From Paenibacillus lycopersici (GTDB lineage: Bacteria > Bacillota > Bacilli > Paenibacillales > Paenibacillaceae): a stretch of DNA of 64,000 bases. A model generated the notes under the pieces. The model was not told the DNA's origin. It searched no databases and saw nothing but the letters and a program-made list of their open reading frames with translations. Positions 8,524 through 60,718 of this stretch are shown here, piece after piece. Within the stretch, counting starts at the first letter, position 1. Each line of letters starts with the position of its first letter. Made by a program: the position numbers and the translations under genes. The DNA lies in the NCBI RefSeq assembly GCF_010119935.1, contig NZ_CP048209.1, positions 4,281,001 through 4,345,000 on the forward strand, in the 5' to 3' direction.

Positions 8524-8551
8524 ATTGTAGCATGCATGTCCGAGATTTCAA
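8524..8551 (-). promoter_or_regulatory. SigA promoter of the 145-residue hypothetical gene
   Basis: TTGAAA (8551-8546), a 16-bp spacer ending in TGC (extended -10), and TACAAT (8529-8524) on the minus strand. The predicted start is near 8517, about 50 bp before the ATG. Confidence 0.65.
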
Positions 8552-48356: not shown

Positions 48357-50114
48357 TCAGCTCTTGAATATGTCCGGGAACGCTTCCGCCTTCTGCTCTT
48401 CCGACGGTTTCAATTCGAGCAGCGCAAGAATCTCCGCGCTCGTCCTGCACTGCAGGAGCCGGTTGAACAGGCTGCGGCATTCCTGCTGCCGGAGCGCCAG
48501 CAGCCGCTCCTTCACCGGCAGAATCGAATGCGCCGACATGCTCAGCTCGTCGACGTCCAGCGCAAGCCAGATCGGCAGCGCCTTCAGATCGCCGGCCATC
48601 TCGCCGCATACGCCGACATGAATGCCTTTGCGCTTCGCCGCTTCGACCGTCAGCTGGATCATCCGCAGGACGGACGGATGGAACGGTTCGTACAGATGCG
48701 AGATCTGCTCGTTCATCCGGTCGACCGCGAGCGTGAATTGAATGAGATCGTTCGTGCCGATACTGAAGAAATCGACTTCGTCGGCCAGCATGTCCGCGAT
48801 GACGACCGCGGCCGGCAGCTCGATCATGATGCCCACTTCGATTTCCTCCGCGAACGGAATGCCTTCGGCGCGAAGCTCTTTCTTGCAGCTTCCGAGCAGC
48901 GCATTCGCCGCCCGCACTTCGTCCACGGACGAAATGAGCGGATACATGATTTTCACGCTGCCGTAATGGCTGGCGCGCAAGATCGCCCGCAGCTGCGTCT
49001 TGAACAGCTCCGTCTTGTCCAGACAGATGCGGATCGCCCTGTACCCCAGGAACGGATTGTCTTCTTCCGGCAGCTCGAAATAATCGAGATGCTTGTCGCC
49101 GCCGATGTCGAGCGTCCGAATGATGAGCGGCTTCGACCCGAGCTCTTCCGCGACGCGGCGGTACACCTCGACCTGCTCTTCCTCCCGCGGCAGACGGCTG
49201 CGGTCCATGTACAGAAACTCCGTCCGGAACAAGCCGACGCCGTTCGCTCCGCTGGAGAGCGCGACGTCAAGCTCCTTCAGCGAGCTGATATTGGCGCTTA
49301 GCTCCATTTCCTTGCCGTCCTGCGTGACCGGCTTGAAATTGATAATGCCCTTCAGCTGCTGCTTCTTCTCCGATTGCATGATCTGCTTGCCCGTATAGAG
49401 GTCGATGAGCGACTGCTCCGGATGGAGATGCACGATGCCGAGGCCGCCGTCGATAATGAGCATATCCCCGGTTTGAATCGTCTCTTCCAGCTTCGACTCG
49501 ATGCCGACGACAAGCGGCACGCCGAGCGCCCGCGCCATGATCGACGAATGCGAAATCGTACTGCCGGCGAGCGTCGCGATCCCGAGCACATGGTTCGGGT
49601 TCAAATGCGCGAGCTGCGACGGCGACAGCTCCTTGGCGATCAAGATGAACGGCTGCGTATCGGAAGGCAGCGTAATTTCCGGCGCGCCGAGCAGATGCTT
49701 GAGCAGCCGGTTGCCGACATCCTTGATGTCGAGGGCGCGTTCCTTCATGTATTCGTCATCCAGCAGGTCGAACATCGTGACGAAGTGGTCGATCGCTTCT
49801 TTGACCGCCACTTCCGCCGCTTTGTATTGGCGCTGAATGATGCCTTGGATTTCGTTCATGAAGACGGGATCGTCCAGAATCGCCAGATGCGCGTCGAAAA
49901 TATAGCTTTCTTCCGGACCGACCGCTTCCCGAAGCTCGTCCTTCATTTGCTCGATCTCGACTTTGGACGTGCGGATGCCTTCATATAAGCGATCGAATTC
50001 CCGTGCGAGATCGCCCACGTCGATTTTCTGTTCCGGAAGATCCCATTCCCAATTCGGGAGTACGAACGCCTTGCCGATCGCGATGCCAGATGATGCTCCA
50101 ATACCTTGAATCAC
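48357..50114 (-). CDS. ptsI: PTS enzyme I (phosphoenolpyruvate-protein phosphotransferase)
   Basis: 585 residues. The N-terminal domain carries the phosphorylated His189 in GSTISHSSIMARALGVP; the PEP-binding barrel has LFRTEFLYMDR, the late GTNDLIQFTLAVDR and VCGEMAG. It starts phosphate transfer from PEP to HPr. The GTG at 50114 follows GGAGGGG by 8 bp and overlaps the upstream EII gene stop by four bases (GTGA). No ptsH (HPr) gene lies between, unlike B. subtilis ptsG-ptsH-ptsI. The length is standard. Confidence 0.96.
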   Translation of the reverse strand: MIQGIGASSGIAIGKAFVLPNWEWDLPEQKIDVGDLAREFDRLYEGIRTSKVEIEQMKDELREAVGPEESYIFDAHLAILDDPVFMNEIQGIIQRQYKAAEVAVKEAIDHFVTMFDLLDDEYMKERALDIKDVGNRLLKHLLGAPEITLPSDTQPFILIAKELSPSQLAHLNPNHVLGIATLAGSTISHSSIMARALGVPLVVGIESKLEETIQTGDMLIIDGGLGIVHLHPEQSLIDLYTGKQIMQSEKKQQLKGIINFKPVTQDGKEMELSANISSLKELDVALSSGANGVGLFRTEFLYMDRSRLPREEEQVEVYRRVAEELGSKPLIIRTLDIGGDKHLDYFELPEEDNPFLGYRAIRICLDKTELFKTQLRAILRASHYGSVKIMYPLISSVDEVRAANALLGSCKKELRAEGIPFAEEIEVGIMIELPAAVVIADMLADEVDFFSIGTNDLIQFTLAVDRMNEQISHLYEPFHPSVLRMIQLTVEAAKRKGIHVGVCGEMAGDLKALPIWLALDVDELSMSAHSILPVKERLLALRQQECRSLFNRLLQCRTSAEILALLELKPSEEQKAEAFPDIFKS

Positions 50115-51994
50115 GCTGTTTCCCCTCCACCGCTTCTCTCTTTTAGCACGACGGACATGACGGAAGCCTGCCCGCGCTTCACGCTCTTGAACGGCGCGAA
50201 GCTCCATGAGCTGACGAGCTCCGAATTGGTAATGACCATCGGCGTCGCAAGCGACTTGCTTCCTTTACGGATTTTCTGCATATCGAAGGTGATCAGCAGC
50301 TGGCCGGGCTTCACCTGGTCGCCTTCCTTGACGACCGCGGAGAAGCCCTGGCCTTTCAGCTGCGACGTATCGATGCCGATATGGAGCAGCACCTCCAGCC
50401 CGTCGGGCGTTCGAATGCCGATCGCGTGCATCGACGAATAGACGTGAATGACCTTGCCGAGCACCGGCGACACGAGCTCGCCCTTCTCCGGCATGAACGC
50501 GACGCCGTCGCCGACGAGCTTGCCCGCGAAGATCGGGTCGGGCACCTCGCTGAGCGGCATCATCCGGCCCTGCACCGGCGAACAGAAGAGCACCCTGGAA
50601 ATGTCCCGGCGGATCGCCTTGTTCATCTCCTCCCGGATAAGCTCGGAATAGGTGCCGAACACGATCTGAACATTGCCTCCGCCGAGGCGGATAACGCCGG
50701 CCGCCCCGAGATGCTTGAGCGCGTTGTTGTCGATCAGCTTGTCGCTGCCGACCTTCAAGCGCAGGCGGGTAATGCAGGCCTCCATCTGGAGGATGTTCTC
50801 CTTGCCTCCGATCGCTTGCAGAATAAGCGGCGCCCTGTACGGAATGTCGCCTGCCCATTCGTCGAGCTGCGACCCTTCCTCGCGCCCCGGCGTCGGAATG
50901 CGGAATCGGCGGATCGCCCAGCGGAACATGACATAATAAATCAGACCGAACAAGATGCCGAGCGGAATGATCAGCCAGCCGCGGGTCGCCAAATGCTCGT
51001 TGATCAGATAGTCGATCGCGCCGGCCGAGAACGAGAAGCCCGTCCGCACGCCAAGCTCGTAGGTCAGCCACATCATCAGGCCGGAGAGCAGCGCATGGAT
51101 GACGAAGAGATACGGCGCCACGAACAGGAACGCGAATTCGATCGGCTCCGTCACGCCCGTCAGGAACGAAGCGAGCGCGGCGGTCATGAACGTCTTGCGG
51201 ATCTTCGGCTTCAAATCCTCGCGCGCCTCGTGAATGATCGCGAACGCGATCGCGGGCAGCGCGAACATCATCGTCGGATACAGGCCGGCCATGAACCCGC
51301 CTGCCATCGGATCGCCGGCGAAGAAACGCGGCAAATCGCCGAACACCATATGCCCGTCCGGCGCCTGATAGGCACCGACCTGGAACCAGAATACATGGCT
51401 GACGAGATGATGCAGGCCGAACACGACCAGTATCCGCAGCACGAAGCCGAACAGAAACACGCCGAAGCCGCCGCCGGAATTGACGATATCGCCAAGCTCC
51501 ATCAAGGCGTTATGTATGCTTGGAGCGATTTGAACCATAATGATCGCCCATAAGGTGGAAAAAACGCTGACAATCAGCGGCACGAATCGCGGTCCGCCGA
51601 AGAACTGGATATATTCGGGAAGCTTGATGGTCTTGAACTTCTCGTTCAAGATGCTCGTCACGATCCCGATAATGACGCCCGTGAATACGGTCGGTTCGAG
51701 TTCATAATGACTGGCGTTGATAATGCCTGTATAGATGAACATGCCCGCCATCGCCGCAAGCCCGGCCGTAACGGAATTGCTGGTCATGCCCATGGCGACG
51801 CCGAGGGCGAATAGATAAGGCAGGAACGCGAAGAGCGTCTGACCGGCAGTCAACAAATGCGTATGTATGCTCGGCATGCCGAAGGAGTCCCATGGCAGGG
51901 CGCTGAGGCAGAGAAAGATCGCGGCCGCGGGCAAAACGATGGTCGGGAGCATCAGCGAACGTCCAAGCTGCTGCAGATGACCCATGATGTTCAT
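50111..51994 (-). CDS. PTS EIICBA transporter, glucose/N-acetylglucosamine family
   Basis: 627 residues in domain order IIC-IIB-IIA. IIC (about 1-365) has some ten helices. IIB has its phospho-cysteine in MEACITRLRLKVG. IIA has its histidine in VLLHIGIDTSQLKGQGF. IIC motifs HHLVSHVFWFQVGAY and GDLPRFFAGDPMAGGFMAGLYPTMMF resemble NagP/NagE-type permeases at least as much as PtsG, so N-acetylglucosamine is as likely as glucose. GAGGAGG lies 7 bp before the ATG. It is the first gene of a two-gene operon with ptsI. Confidence 0.92.
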   Translation of the reverse strand: MNIMGHLQQLGRSLMLPTIVLPAAAIFLCLSALPWDSFGMPSIHTHLLTAGQTLFAFLPYLFALGVAMGMTSNSVTAGLAAMAGMFIYTGIINASHYELEPTVFTGVIIGIVTSILNEKFKTIKLPEYIQFFGGPRFVPLIVSVFSTLWAIIMVQIAPSIHNALMELGDIVNSGGGFGVFLFGFVLRILVVFGLHHLVSHVFWFQVGAYQAPDGHMVFGDLPRFFAGDPMAGGFMAGLYPTMMFALPAIAFAIIHEAREDLKPKIRKTFMTAALASFLTGVTEPIEFAFLFVAPYLFVIHALLSGLMMWLTYELGVRTGFSFSAGAIDYLINEHLATRGWLIIPLGILFGLIYYVMFRWAIRRFRIPTPGREEGSQLDEWAGDIPYRAPLILQAIGGKENILQMEACITRLRLKVGSDKLIDNNALKHLGAAGVIRLGGGNVQIVFGTYSELIREEMNKAIRRDISRVLFCSPVQGRMMPLSEVPDPIFAGKLVGDGVAFMPEKGELVSPVLGKVIHVYSSMHAIGIRTPDGLEVLLHIGIDTSQLKGQGFSAVVKEGDQVKPGQLLITFDMQKIRKGSKSLATPMVITNSELVSSWSFAPFKSVKRGQASVMSVVLKERSGGGETA

Positions 51995-52086: not shown

Positions 52087-52115
52087 ATCGTAAGGGTTTC
52101 CCCGATGCTTGTCAA
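52087..52115 (-). promoter_or_regulatory. SigA promoter of the EIICBA-ptsI operon
   Basis: TTGACA (52115-52110), 17 bp, TACGAT (52092-52087) on the minus strand. The -35 lies directly behind the terminator of the upstream repeat-protein gene. No GlcT-type antitermination hairpin was recognised in the ~90-nt leader. Confidence 0.75.
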
Positions 52116-52143
52116 AAGAAAACGGCGGACCGTTAGTCCGCCG
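52116..52143 (-). terminator. Terminator of the PVISH-repeat gene
   Basis: CGGCGGAC (52123-52130) with GTCCGCCG (52136-52143); the minus-strand transcript then reads TTTTCTTTT. The T-run adjoins the -35 of the next operon. Confidence 0.85.
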
Positions 52144-52191: not shown

Positions 52192-52923
52192 TTATTGCTG
52201 ATAGCCGCCGGAGTTCTGGCTGTTCGCCGTAAATCCGTGACGGGAAATGACCGGACCTTGATTGGAAAATCCGGAATGCTGAAGGACCGGCGTGCTGCCG
52301 GCTTGGCTCGTAAATTGCGTTGCGCCGTAGCCGCCGCTGCCGAAGGAGCTTTGGTGCTGGGCGTTCTGTTGTTGGGCGTTCTGCGCCTGGTACCCGCCGT
52401 AATGCGAAATGACCGGCTGCGATTGTTGATTCGCGTAGCTCGTCAAAGCATGCGATTGATACGGCTGGGACTGCTGGGATTGCTGCATATTTTGGGCTTG
52501 ATAGCCGCCGAAGTGCGAAATGACCGGCTGCGATTGTTGATTCATGTAGCTCGTCGAAGCCTGCGTCCGATAAGACTGGGATTGCTGCTGCTGTTGCTGC
52601 GCGTTTTGGGCTTGATAGCCGCCGTAATGCGAGATGACCGGCTGCGACGACATGTTGTTCGAGCTTCCGCCATAATGCGACAATACCGGTTGGGAACCGT
52701 GCATTTGGCTCGAATTCATAGAGGAGCTTTGGCCATAACCGTTGTTAGCGGAATAACCAAGATGCGAAATGACAGGACCCGTATTGGACTGCGCCGACAT
52801 ATTGCCGGCTTGTTTCGGAATGCCTTGGTAGTGGGATTGCACGAACCCCGATGGTTGATACCGGTTCTGTTGACCCATTCCGCCCGACATTCCGTTAGAG
52901 CCCTGCTGCCCAAATTGATTCAT
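52192..52923 (-). CDS. Gln/Ser/Tyr-rich repeat protein with seven PVISHxG motifs
   Basis: 243 residues of low complexity, rich in Gln, Ser, Gly, Asn and Tyr, with no Cys, no signal peptide and no membrane helix. Seven copies of a motif occur: PVISHLGY (50-57), PVLSHYGG (79-85), PVISHYGGYQAQN (95-107), PVISHFGGYQAQN (133-145), PVISHYGGYQAQN (170-182), PVLQHSGF (212-219), PVISRHGF (224-231). Each contains one His near the centre. Spacers are Gln/Asn-rich. I do not recognise a family. The composition resembles spore-coat or gel-forming proteins, but that is only a resemblance. AGGAGG lies about 11 bp before the ATG, and a terminator follows it. Confidence 0.8.
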   Translation of the reverse strand: MNQFGQQGSNGMSGGMGQQNRYQPSGFVQSHYQGIPKQAGNMSAQSNTGPVISHLGYSANNGYGQSSSMNSSQMHGSQPVLSHYGGSSNNMSSQPVISHYGGYQAQNAQQQQQQSQSYRTQASTSYMNQQSQPVISHFGGYQAQNMQQSQQSQPYQSHALTSYANQQSQPVISHYGGYQAQNAQQQNAQHQSSFGSGGYGATQFTSQAGSTPVLQHSGFSNQGPVISRHGFTANSQNSGGYQQ

Positions 52924-52947
52924 CGTTGTGATGTCCTCCTAGAATTC

Positions 52948-53002
52948 AGGGATTTGGCTTCGGAGCACCCGCTTCAAAGCGTTAGCCCCGAAAAGCCTCC
53001 CT
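52948..53002 (-). other. Strongly folded leader upstream of the PVISH-repeat gene
   Basis: Three nested stems can be drawn: AGGGA/TCCCT (52948-52952 with 52998-53002), GGCTTCGG/CCGAAAAGCC (52956-52963 with 52988-52997, one bulge), and CGCTT/AAGCG (52970-52974 with 52977-52981). It ends 25 bp before the gene start, with no T-run. It matches no riboswitch class that I recognise. It could be a regulatory RNA element or the end of the preceding CoA-binding transcript. Confidence 0.55.
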
Positions 53003-53035
53003 TATTGTTGGAGAGACGGCATGTTTTTATGTTTG

Positions 53036-53470
53036 TTAGGATTTGGCTTTGCCGTGCGGCAGCAGGATGGAATCCTCGACTTTAATGCAGCGGTCCATGA
53101 CCGCGTTCAACCCGCCTTGCTGCGCAATTGCGGCCGCTTCCTCGTTCTCGACGCCGAGCTGCAGCCAGAGCGTCTTGGCGCCGATAGCGACGGCTTCCCG
53201 GGCAATCGGCGGCGTATGCTCGCTGCGGCGGAATACATTGACAAGATCGATGGGAAACGGAATTTCGCCCAGCGATGCGTATACGCGCTCGCCGAGAATC
53301 GTCTCGGCGTTCGGATTCACCGGAACAATCCGGTAGCCCTTGGCCTGCATGGCCTCCGACACCATGTAGGAGGTACGTTCCGGATTGTCCGACAAGCCGA
53401 CCACCGCGATCGTGCGCGATGCTTCCAGAATCCGTTTGATCTCATCCCGCGAAGGATTCGCGAATGCCAT
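53036..53470 (-). CDS. CoA-binding domain protein (YccU family)
   Basis: 144 residues with a Rossmann-type CoA-binding domain: TIAVVGLSDNPERTSYMVSEAMQAKGYRIVPVNPN, then VNVFRRSEHTPPI and ALQLGVENEEA-like LWLQLGVENEEAA. The family resembles succinyl-CoA synthetase alpha-subunit N-termini but lacks the ligase parts. Its biological role is unknown. AAAGGA lies about 10 bp before the ATG. It sits between aroA and the repeat-protein gene, transcribed in the same direction as both. Confidence 0.92.
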   Translation of the reverse strand: MAFANPSRDEIKRILEASRTIAVVGLSDNPERTSYMVSEAMQAKGYRIVPVNPNAETILGERVYASLGEIPFPIDLVNVFRRSEHTPPIAREAVAIGAKTLWLQLGVENEEAAAIAQQGGLNAVMDRCIKVEDSILLPHGKAKS

Positions 53471-59261: not shown

Positions 59262-59498
59262 ATGCCCGCCATCGTCGGTTTCGTCAAAGTCATCAGCGTC
59301 GGCTCGAGCGCCATCGTTCAATTCGGCGATTCCGTGCAGCTGTCGCCGACGAGTTCTTCCAAAACGTACGCGGGTTCCGGTTCGTTCCTGACCGGCAGCC
59401 TGGCGAATTCCAACAACGCCGTCAGCGCTACGAACACGAGCGACCCCGACGTTCAGGACAATACGAACAATGAAGTCGCGACAGGGGTCAACGTGTAA
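59262..59498 (+). CDS. gerPA: Spore germination protein GerPA (GerPA/GerPF family)
   Basis: 78 residues of the GerPA/PF family: MPAIVGFVKVISVGSSAIVQFGD, then SKTYAGSGSFLTGSLANSNN and the C-terminal TNTSDPDVQDN. GerP proteins are assembled in the inner spore coat and help nutrients reach the germinant receptors. It is first in the operon and its stop codon overlaps the next start (TAATG). GerPA and GerPF are paralogues; the position favours GerPA. AGAAGGAG lies about 9 bp before the ATG. Confidence 0.92.
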   Translation: MPAIVGFVKVISVGSSAIVQFGDSVQLSPTSSSKTYAGSGSFLTGSLANSNNAVSATNTSDPDVQDNTNNEVATGVNV

Positions 59499-59698
59499 TG
59501 AATCTGACGGTTCATCAGTGCATCACCATTCATCAGCTTCGAGTAGACAGCGTCACGAACTCCTCCGTCCTGCAAGTCGGGACGGCGGGGTCCATCGCTT
59601 CCAATTCCCAGATGTTCAATACGGGCGGCTTCACGGAACCGGCCCCTCAGCTCGAGGAGAATCCCGTCAACTTCGTGCCGCTGCCGAACCCTCATTAA
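59498..59698 (+). CDS. gerPB: Spore germination protein GerPB
   Basis: 66 residues: MNLTVHQCITIHQLRVDSVT, SSVLQVGTAGSI and NTGGFTEPAP, the usual GerPB pattern. It overlaps the gerPA stop by one base and is followed by gerPC after 18 bp. It is part of the coat-located GerP set that controls permeability to germinants. No signal peptide; one cysteine (Cys8). Confidence 0.92.
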   Translation: MNLTVHQCITIHQLRVDSVTNSSVLQVGTAGSIASNSQMFNTGGFTEPAPQLEENPVNFVPLPNPH

Positions 59699-59716
59699 AG
59701 CCGGAGGTGCCTGCAA

Positions 59717-60718
59717 ATGCAAAGCGATGCCCAGAGGACCCCGTCGCCATGGCAAGCGGTCATGGGACTCAACCAATACGTGCAGCAGCTGCAGTGCCAG
59801 ATCAACGACCAGCAGGCGCTAATCAACCGGTTAACCCAGCAGCTTGACATGTTGAACGAACGTATCATGGCGGTCGAAAATAAGCCTTATTACCACGTCG
59901 ACACGATTCAATATCATTTTGACCAACTGAAAGTGGAGAAGCTGTCCGGGACGCTCAACATCGGCATGTCGGCGCCGAGCGAGGATCAGATCAAAGAGAT
60001 CGGACAACTGGTCATGCCGGCGGGCGGCGGAGACGGCGGGATTGGCGGGAACGCCGGGAATGCCGGAAATGCTGCGAACGCAGGGAACGCAGGGAACGCC
60101 TCGAGTGCCGTGAATCACGTGAATGCCGGAAGTGCCGGGAATGCCGGGAATCACATGAACGGCATCAAAACGGCGTACCCGGCGCATGCCGCGAGCGCAG
60201 GCAGCGCGGCGAACGGCGGCAACGGCTGGAACGGCCTCGTCAGCAACGGCGCGGCCATCGGCAACGGCGGCATTGTCGTGAACGAGCCCAAATCGCCTTC
60301 GGAACCGAAGACCGATCCGCAAGCGACCAACACGCCGCATCAGTTCCCTGCGCCCGCCTCGCTCGGCATCCCGCCCGCGGTCACGCCCGCGCCGCCGTAT
60401 CCGGAAATCCGCCGCGTCATCGACTGCTACCTGGATCAGAGCGCGCCGCTGAATTTGCAGCGGTTCGAGGCGGAAGCCGGCATCTCCCTGGATCCTTACC
60501 ATCGGAGACTGGTCATTGAAGATATCCGGAAACAAATGAGTCAGCGCATTCAGTTCTATATCCAGACGCTGTCCCGCGAATCCGAAGGCGAGCACGATCA
60601 AGGCCCGGCAGCCGCAGGCTCCGAGCCGGGCCTCCCGGACGAAGTGATCCGCAAGACGGAGCGCGATATCGACATGGCGTTGAAGAACTACGTCCGCCGT
60701 CTGACGTCGAGCCCGTAA
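59717..60718 (+). CDS. gerPC: Spore germination protein GerPC with a Gly/Asn/Ala-rich insert
   Basis: 333 residues, well above the ~200 of Bacillus GerPC. The N-terminal coiled coil (QYVQQLQCQINDQQALINRL) and the YHVDTIQYHFDQLKVEKLSGTLNIG block are typical, as is the C-terminal PEIRRVIDCYLDQSAPLNLQRF and IEDIRKQMSQRIQFYIQTL. Between them, about 101-225 is low complexity: GNAGNAGNAANAGNAGN repeats, then Gly/Asn and Pro-rich segments. The insert accounts for the extra length. The tail with LPDEVIRKTERDIDMALKNYVRRL is also conserved. In the GerP set GerPC is probably a structural part. Confidence 0.93.
   Translation: MQSDAQRTPSPWQAVMGLNQYVQQLQCQINDQQALINRLTQQLDMLNERIMAVENKPYYHVDTIQYHFDQLKVEKLSGTLNIGMSAPSEDQIKEIGQLVMPAGGGDGGIGGNAGNAGNAANAGNAGNASSAVNHVNAGSAGNAGNHMNGIKTAYPAHAASAGSAANGGNGWNGLVSNGAAIGNGGIVVNEPKSPSEPKTDPQATNTPHQFPAPASLGIPPAVTPAPPYPEIRRVIDCYLDQSAPLNLQRFEAEAGISLDPYHRRLVIEDIRKQMSQRIQFYIQTLSRESEGEHDQGPAAAGSEPGLPDEVIRKTERDIDMALKNYVRRLTSSP

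Follow-up and report, generated by a model that had tools for sequence, protein, structure and literature searches.

The window analysed here is a 64-kb stretch of Paenibacillus lycopersici DNA, and it contains an open reading frame for a repetitive, Gln-rich, and nearly uncharged protein. The frame raises the question of whether such a low-complexity sequence is a gene at all and, if it is, what the protein does and in which compartment of the sporulating cell it is made. As set out below, its conservation and its promoter suggest that this is probably an unrecognised, spore-related gene.

Sequence of the repeat protein

The coding sequence runs from 52923 to 52192 on the minus strand, the strand being a detail missing from the preliminary description of the locus, and encodes a Q/S/G/N/Y/H-rich repeat protein of 243 residues. 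The most abundant residues are Gln (52), Ser (42), Gly (32), Asn (19), Tyr (16), Ala (15), and His (11). There are one Lys and three Arg residues, and Cys, Asp, Glu, and Trp are all absent. In terms of composition alone, Gln and Asn account for 71 of the 243 residues, compared with no acidic residues and four Lys and Arg residues. With Lys and Arg so scarce, tryptic data sets may easily overlook the protein. Inspection of the sequence by eye revealed neither a signal peptide nor a membrane helix, in agreement with the preliminary description, which had also noted the lack of Cys.

Seven repeats of a His-centred unit had been reported for this protein. Seven units are indeed counted with the relaxed pattern P-V-[IL]-x-[HR]-x-G (residues 50–230; 52234..52776, minus strand), starting at residues 50, 79, 95, 133, 170, 212, and 224, and His occupies the fifth place in six of them, but the strict PVISHxG is present only four times and PV[IL]SHxG five times. 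Shuffling the protein 2000 times never produced the PV[IL]SHxG pattern. Three extended copies, PVISHxGGYQAQN, previously placed at intervals of about 37 residues, are located at residues 95, 133, and 170, which gives spacings of 38 and 37 residues. These copies overlap a tandem array identified by TRF at 52366..52647 (minus strand), in which a 111-bp unit encoding 37 residues is present in 2.5 copies.

We regard an overlapping plus-strand open reading frame of 296 residues (52195–53085) as a shadow of the minus-strand gene, since both the selection acting on the minus frame and its ribosome-binding site favour the latter.

Distribution and conservation of the family

Within the genus, 20 of 22 genomes, including the window genome, matched the single protein used as query. 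A profile built from 21 members extended the matches to 71 of 394 Paenibacillaceae genomes, in 8 of 19 genera, and missed one genus member (G015) that the single sequence had found. Since most of the family genomes searched have no match, the gene is dispensable. A class-wide sample (398 genomes, 146 genera), which also contains other genomes of the same family, gave a match in the window genome alone, and a low-complexity profile of this kind may overlook distant relatives. As far as the searches reach, matches are thus confined to the Paenibacillaceae, as expected of the lineage-restricted family that had been suggested. Named relatives carrying the gene include Paenibacillus glycinis, P. 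lignilyticus, P. sacheonensis, and P. montanisoli.

The assembled set comprises 72 proteins of 191–316 residues, one per genome and including that of the window; for the G006 member, the sequence used begins at a TTG that immediately precedes the probable ATG start. In 19 of 20 hand-chosen pairs, dN/dS lies between 0.03 and 0.25, far from equal synonymous and non-synonymous rates, and in the remaining pair dS is saturated. As the preliminary description had held, the open reading frame is a real gene; with 72 members and dN/dS values far below 1, it is conserved and under purifying selection in part of the Paenibacillaceae.

Members share a common plan. The start resembles MNQFGQQG and is followed by a box of the form [YF]QPxG[YF]VQSxYQG, which in the window protein is YQPSGFVQSHYQG at residues 22–34 (52822..52860, minus strand) and which a loose, simple pattern finds in 67 of 72 members. 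The middle contains at least one PVISHxGYxAG unit, then an NPVYQATN box (the NPVY box is found by a simple pattern in 62 of 72), and then GPVISxxGYxAG; the C-terminus is frequently RF. The number of repeats differs between members, and the His position of the unit is frequently Lys, Arg, Gln, or Ala in relatives. Over the 72 proteins the composition is 19.7% Gln, 4.0% His, 6.8% Tyr, 0.24% Lys, 0.46% Asp, 0.57% Glu, and no Cys.

In the G002 member (L010:1501-2331), the block QAQNAQQAQPYQASSGMQQQSAIGRSSFNASSQPVISAFGGY has been duplicated in frame and exactly at the protein level, which suggests that the repeats are still expanding.

Searches for known relatives

The preliminary description had assigned the protein to no known family, and nothing in Pfam, NCBIfam, PHROGs, or the PDB sequences passed a curated or default cut-off. 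For the window protein, no Pfam or PHROGs match was better than E 0.21; the two nearest, Ndh2_N in Pfam (E 0.21) and an anti-repressor in PHROGs (E 0.26), are below threshold and were set aside as chance. The window protein and three of four relatives have no NCBIfam match at E ≤ 1. The fourth relative gave three matches at E 0.0007–0.03, including models for acetolactate synthase and citryl-CoA lyase, all far under the cut-offs and likewise attributed to chance. A five-member profile found no match among PDB sequences at E ≤ 1.

No relative was found in plasmid and phage collections with the window protein as query, or among viral contigs with A5 as query, so an origin from a mobile element is unsupported. 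The literature searched, which consisted of listings and the beginnings of abstracts, with most subscription journals outside its scope, contained no description of this protein.

Gene neighbourhood

The repeat gene lies between a yccU-like gene for a CoA-binding protein upstream (53036..53470, minus strand; CoA_binding_2, E 4.9e-45) and a ptsG-like gene for a PTS EIICBA protein downstream (50111..51994, minus strand), the former identified by its domain match and the latter by a Pfam search, both together with synteny. The synteny with yccU and pts genes that had been proposed as a check is well preserved. The order aroA-yccU-[repeat gene]-ptsG-ptsI is found at 18 of 21 flanked loci, and in 66 of the 72 members the 3′ end of yccU is no more than 300 nt away on the upstream side. 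In the other six (G001, G006, G009, G010, G015, and G021), no yccU 3′ end is present within 300 nt, and the sporulation-type promoter described below is retained. In G006, what appear by eye to be the last bases of yccU precede the promoter, so that gene and control region were apparently relocated together.

The corresponding interval has also been inspected in 19 genomes without a profile match, one of which is G015, where the repeat gene is located elsewhere. In these 19 genomes yccU is present, no promoter pattern occurs within 1.5 kb after it, and the two most Q/S/G-rich open reading frames per genome in the same interval include no family member. A short GCATAAAAAACG stretch follows yccU in one genome with no profile match (G037, L111) and may be the remnant of a promoter that has been lost.

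About 6 kb from the repeat gene, on the plus strand at 59262–60718, the window contains open reading frames that we take to resemble the gerP spore-germination cluster.

Predicted promoter and compartment of expression

A two-block, promoter-like element is located upstream of all 72 members, with a spacing of 22 nt in 69 of them and a distance of 49–109 nt (median 71) from the end of the −10 block to the start codon. In the window, the predicted sigma-G-type promoter (53001..53031, minus strand) has the −35 block CATAAAA (53031–53025) and the −10 block AACAATAAG (53009–53001). Both blocks were already evident when 40 upstream regions were simply aligned, prior to any model. The base counts over the 72 members come from sites that the SASP model itself picked. 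On this basis, the −35 block has ATA in 71 of 72, followed mainly by AAA, and the −10 block is [CAT]A[CTA]A[AC]TA with invariant A, A, T, and A and with an A after TA in 71 of 72; the block is preceded by a G in just 11 of 72. The third base of the −10 block is C in 66 of 72, yet T in most SASP training sites.

The sigma-G model was derived from 30 SASP upstream regions of seven Paenibacillaceae genomes, with a sigma-G consensus as the seed and the best 24 regions used for training. Transcription of SASP genes is sigma-G-dependent according to PMC3533761. With this model, the family has a median score of 17.5, compared with 3.7 for downstream controls (71), 1.0 for reverse-strand controls (72), and −0.4 for more distal upstream controls (71). 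Of the 72 members, 69 score above the pooled-control 99th percentile (11.9), the members below it being G006, G016, and G105, although the highest single control (15.4, distal upstream) exceeds some of the family scores. According to PMC3789822, a G upstream of the −10 element is conserved in sigma-F promoters, and an A downstream of it in sigma-G promoters. Applied in this general form, without exact positions, the rule makes the promoter look like a sigma-G promoter. Since the promoter resembles those of SASP genes and fits the SASP model far better than the sigma-E model described below, sigma-G probably transcribes the gene in the forespore.

Sites of this kind are rare in the window and not unique, since five sites on its two strands score at least 14 with the SASP model, that of the repeat gene (16.6) being the third. 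The two higher-scoring sites are at 8526 (minus strand; 18.8) and 42198 (plus strand; 18.0). A strict promoter pattern searched in five genomes found the gene's own promoter in each and four other places. With nine pattern matches in all and four from the reversed control, no co-regulated set was revealed.

Coat proteins are products of mother-cell genes and are synthesised in that compartment, so a sigma-G-like promoter argues against a coat protein and makes the coat a less likely location than the spore core. The preliminary description had proposed a protein of the spore coat or of a condensate; the promoter upholds the connection with the spore and, in its resemblance to forespore sigma-G promoters, speaks against the coat. 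A condensate or a cross-linked structural role would be compatible with the composition. A self-assembling or cross-linked coat or exosporium protein, with cross-links through Tyr, His, and Gln, would be in line with the Q/S/G/Y/H-rich repeats and with the fact that no signal peptide was seen. An ATA −35 element also belongs to sigma-E promoters according to PMC3789822, and a sigma-E model derived from SpoIIID scores the family above controls on average (median −0.5 vs −3.2). However, this model, which is a narrow one built on one gene in 14 genomes, places only 7 of 72 members above its control 99th percentile, compared with 69 of 72 for the sigma-G model, and the sigma-E-type SpoIIID upstream regions themselves (n = 14) score at most 4.6 with the SASP model. 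The Lys content of only 0.24% also disfavours classical transglutaminase Gln-Lys bonds, and overall we regard a coat or exosporium protein as unlikely.

Leader, ribosome-binding site, and terminator

The transcript start predicted from this promoter would be followed by a 5′-terminal mRNA hairpin at 52956..52997 (minus strand) according to folding predictions. Hairpins of 7 bp or more are predicted at the transcript start in 71 of 72 members, while dinucleotide shuffles give an expectation of 50.0, and the leaders fold with a median MFE z-score of −1.96, with 49 of 72 below −1.5. No covarying hairpin pairs were found in an alignment of 29 leaders (drawn from 38 of 40, G008 and G082 having been missed by the anchor pattern), probably because of differing stem lengths. 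In eight clade alignments, which together include 38 of the 72 leaders, 16 double-sided changes are seen among 132 predicted pairs, and 34 pairs are broken in some member; covariation thus lends the hairpin moderate support only. The leader matched no Rfam family: across 1.5 kb of the window a single chance-level match (E 2.1) lay close to the terminator, and the loci of six relatives had none at the gathering score. Some 5′ hairpins are known to stabilise mRNA. By analogy, the hairpin would stabilise the mRNA of the repeat gene and suggests strong expression.

The ribosome-binding site, rated excellent in the preliminary description, is AGGAGG at 52940–52935 (52935..52940, minus strand) and is well conserved, with AGGAGG immediately ahead of the start codon in 69 and GGAGG in all 72 members. 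The terminator had been called clean. A predicted intrinsic terminator with a GC stem of 7 bp (GGCGGAC) and a T-rich tail can be read at 52115..52142 (minus strand), but a terminator scan finds one site there against a shuffle mean of 1.5, with no excess over shuffles, so the assignment is a matter of reading the sequence. A promoter-like site for ptsG has TTGACA as its first hexamer, which begins at the end of this terminator.

Proposed role in the spore core

We propose that the gene encodes a disordered spore-core protein made in the forespore late in sporulation, with a role like that of the gamma-type SASP, to whose family it does not belong, and we give this reading about an even chance of being right. 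RNA polymerase with sigma-G would transcribe the gene after engulfment. With neither signal peptide nor membrane helix, the protein would remain in the forespore and be packed into the drying spore core. A soluble spore-core protein is consistent with the forespore promoter, the lack of a visible export signal, and the uncharged low-complexity sequence, whose composition also suggests disorder. The conserved PVISHxGYQAG units may allow the protein to associate weakly with itself, the Q/S/N/G stretches between them serving as flexible spacers, and multivalent self-association on drying is our preferred, unproven mechanism. The protein might serve as a filler, a protectant, and an amino-acid reserve, as the gamma-type SASP does. 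Since the PVISHxG units are strongly conserved and a pure reserve needs no such boxes, the protein presumably does more than store amino acids. A reserve released by GPR is unsupported, as a pattern for the GPR cleavage site has no match in any of the 72 proteins.

P. glycinis (G004) also encodes an alpha/beta hydrolase that carries the family's N-terminal module as a fusion (L081:5016-6173, minus strand; Abhydrolase_1, E 4.6e-27). Upstream of the fusion gene are a promoter and a leader that resemble those of the family but have diverged, the best promoter site scoring 9.0. It is the one fusion noticed in family-wide profile searches, which were not designed to find fusions, and it suggests that the module is portable.

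A bolder form of our proposal, which we think rather unlikely, would make the protein a dedicated disordered, multivalent core protein, evolved in part of the Paenibacillaceae, that is produced under sigma-G, condenses on drying, and takes the filler and protectant role of the gamma-type SASP of Bacillus, the N-terminal box being a tag that can recruit enzymes to the core matrix, as in the hydrolase fusion. The fusion may also be read in terms of a cytoplasmic scaffold that forms condensates, perhaps outside sporulation as well, and recruits partners through the N-terminal box. A portable module and a Q/N-rich, nearly uncharged composition would be expected of such a scaffold. On the other hand, a single fusion was noticed, its promoter site is low-scoring, and the argument for phase separation is one from composition, so that we would not expect this account to hold.

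A metal buffer (Mn, Ca, or Zn) or antioxidant of the spore core acting through regularly spaced His and Tyr seems quite improbable. The placement of His in six of seven window units and the family's His and Tyr contents are compatible with it, but the frequent replacement of this His by Lys, Arg, Gln, or Ala in relatives, the near absence of acidic ligands, and the complete absence of Cys ligands speak against it. It is very improbable that this is an ordinary vegetative sigma-A gene for a filler in stress or stationary phase, since the partial likeness of the −10 sequence ACAAT to TATAAT is accompanied by a sigma-A-like −35 element (at least 4 of 6 bases, at 16–18 nt) in just 10 of 72 members, and a scan for sigma-70-type sites in the window found none upstream of the repeat gene.

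Comparison with known systems

The spore-core protein proposed here can be set beside several known groups of proteins. The Tyr/Gly/Gln-rich bacterial spore coat proteins have a similarly repetitive low-complexity composition, but they are mother-cell products, unlike a protein with a predicted forespore promoter, and the window protein has no Pfam or NCBIfam match past the cut-off. Eukaryotic sticker-and-spacer proteins, of the prion-like or histidine-rich structural kind, share the arrangement of aromatic and His motifs in a Q/S/G/N matrix; the likeness is one of analogy alone, with no homology. The alpha/beta-type SASPs (PF00269) are linked to the repeat gene through their promoters, which trained the model that recognises its promoter. 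The repeat protein differs from them in composition and length, and PF00269 is not among the Pfam matches of the window protein at E ≤ 1; nothing observed so far suggests that it binds DNA.

The closest parallel is offered by the gamma-type SASP (SspE, PF04259), itself a low-complexity protein. Like SspE, the repeat protein would be a low-complexity core protein from a forespore sigma-G gene, judging by promoter sequence. It differs in length (191–316 residues in the family, compared with 84 positions in the PF04259 model) and in having nearly no charged residues, and PF04259 is not among the Pfam matches of the window protein at E ≤ 1. At E ≤ 0.001, PF04259 was found in none of 30 Paenibacillaceae genomes, the window genome included, and the B. 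subtilis control was positive. These genomes comprise 15 with and 15 without the repeat gene, and the equal lack of PF04259 in the latter weakens the idea of a strict replacement of the gamma-type SASP. The PF04259 result in itself points to either a family-wide lack of the gamma-type SASP or a strongly diverged version of it.

The source of the dryness, immobility, and resistance of the spore core beyond the DNA-binding SASPs and dipicolinate is still debated. In a group where the gamma-type SASP was not found, a conserved, nearly uncharged repeat protein predicted to be made in the forespore is a concrete and easily deleted candidate. Paenibacillus thereby gains a lineage-specific putative spore gene from an open reading frame left unnamed by the family libraries searched, one that resembles SspE in predicted compartment and low complexity and departs from it in length and charge.
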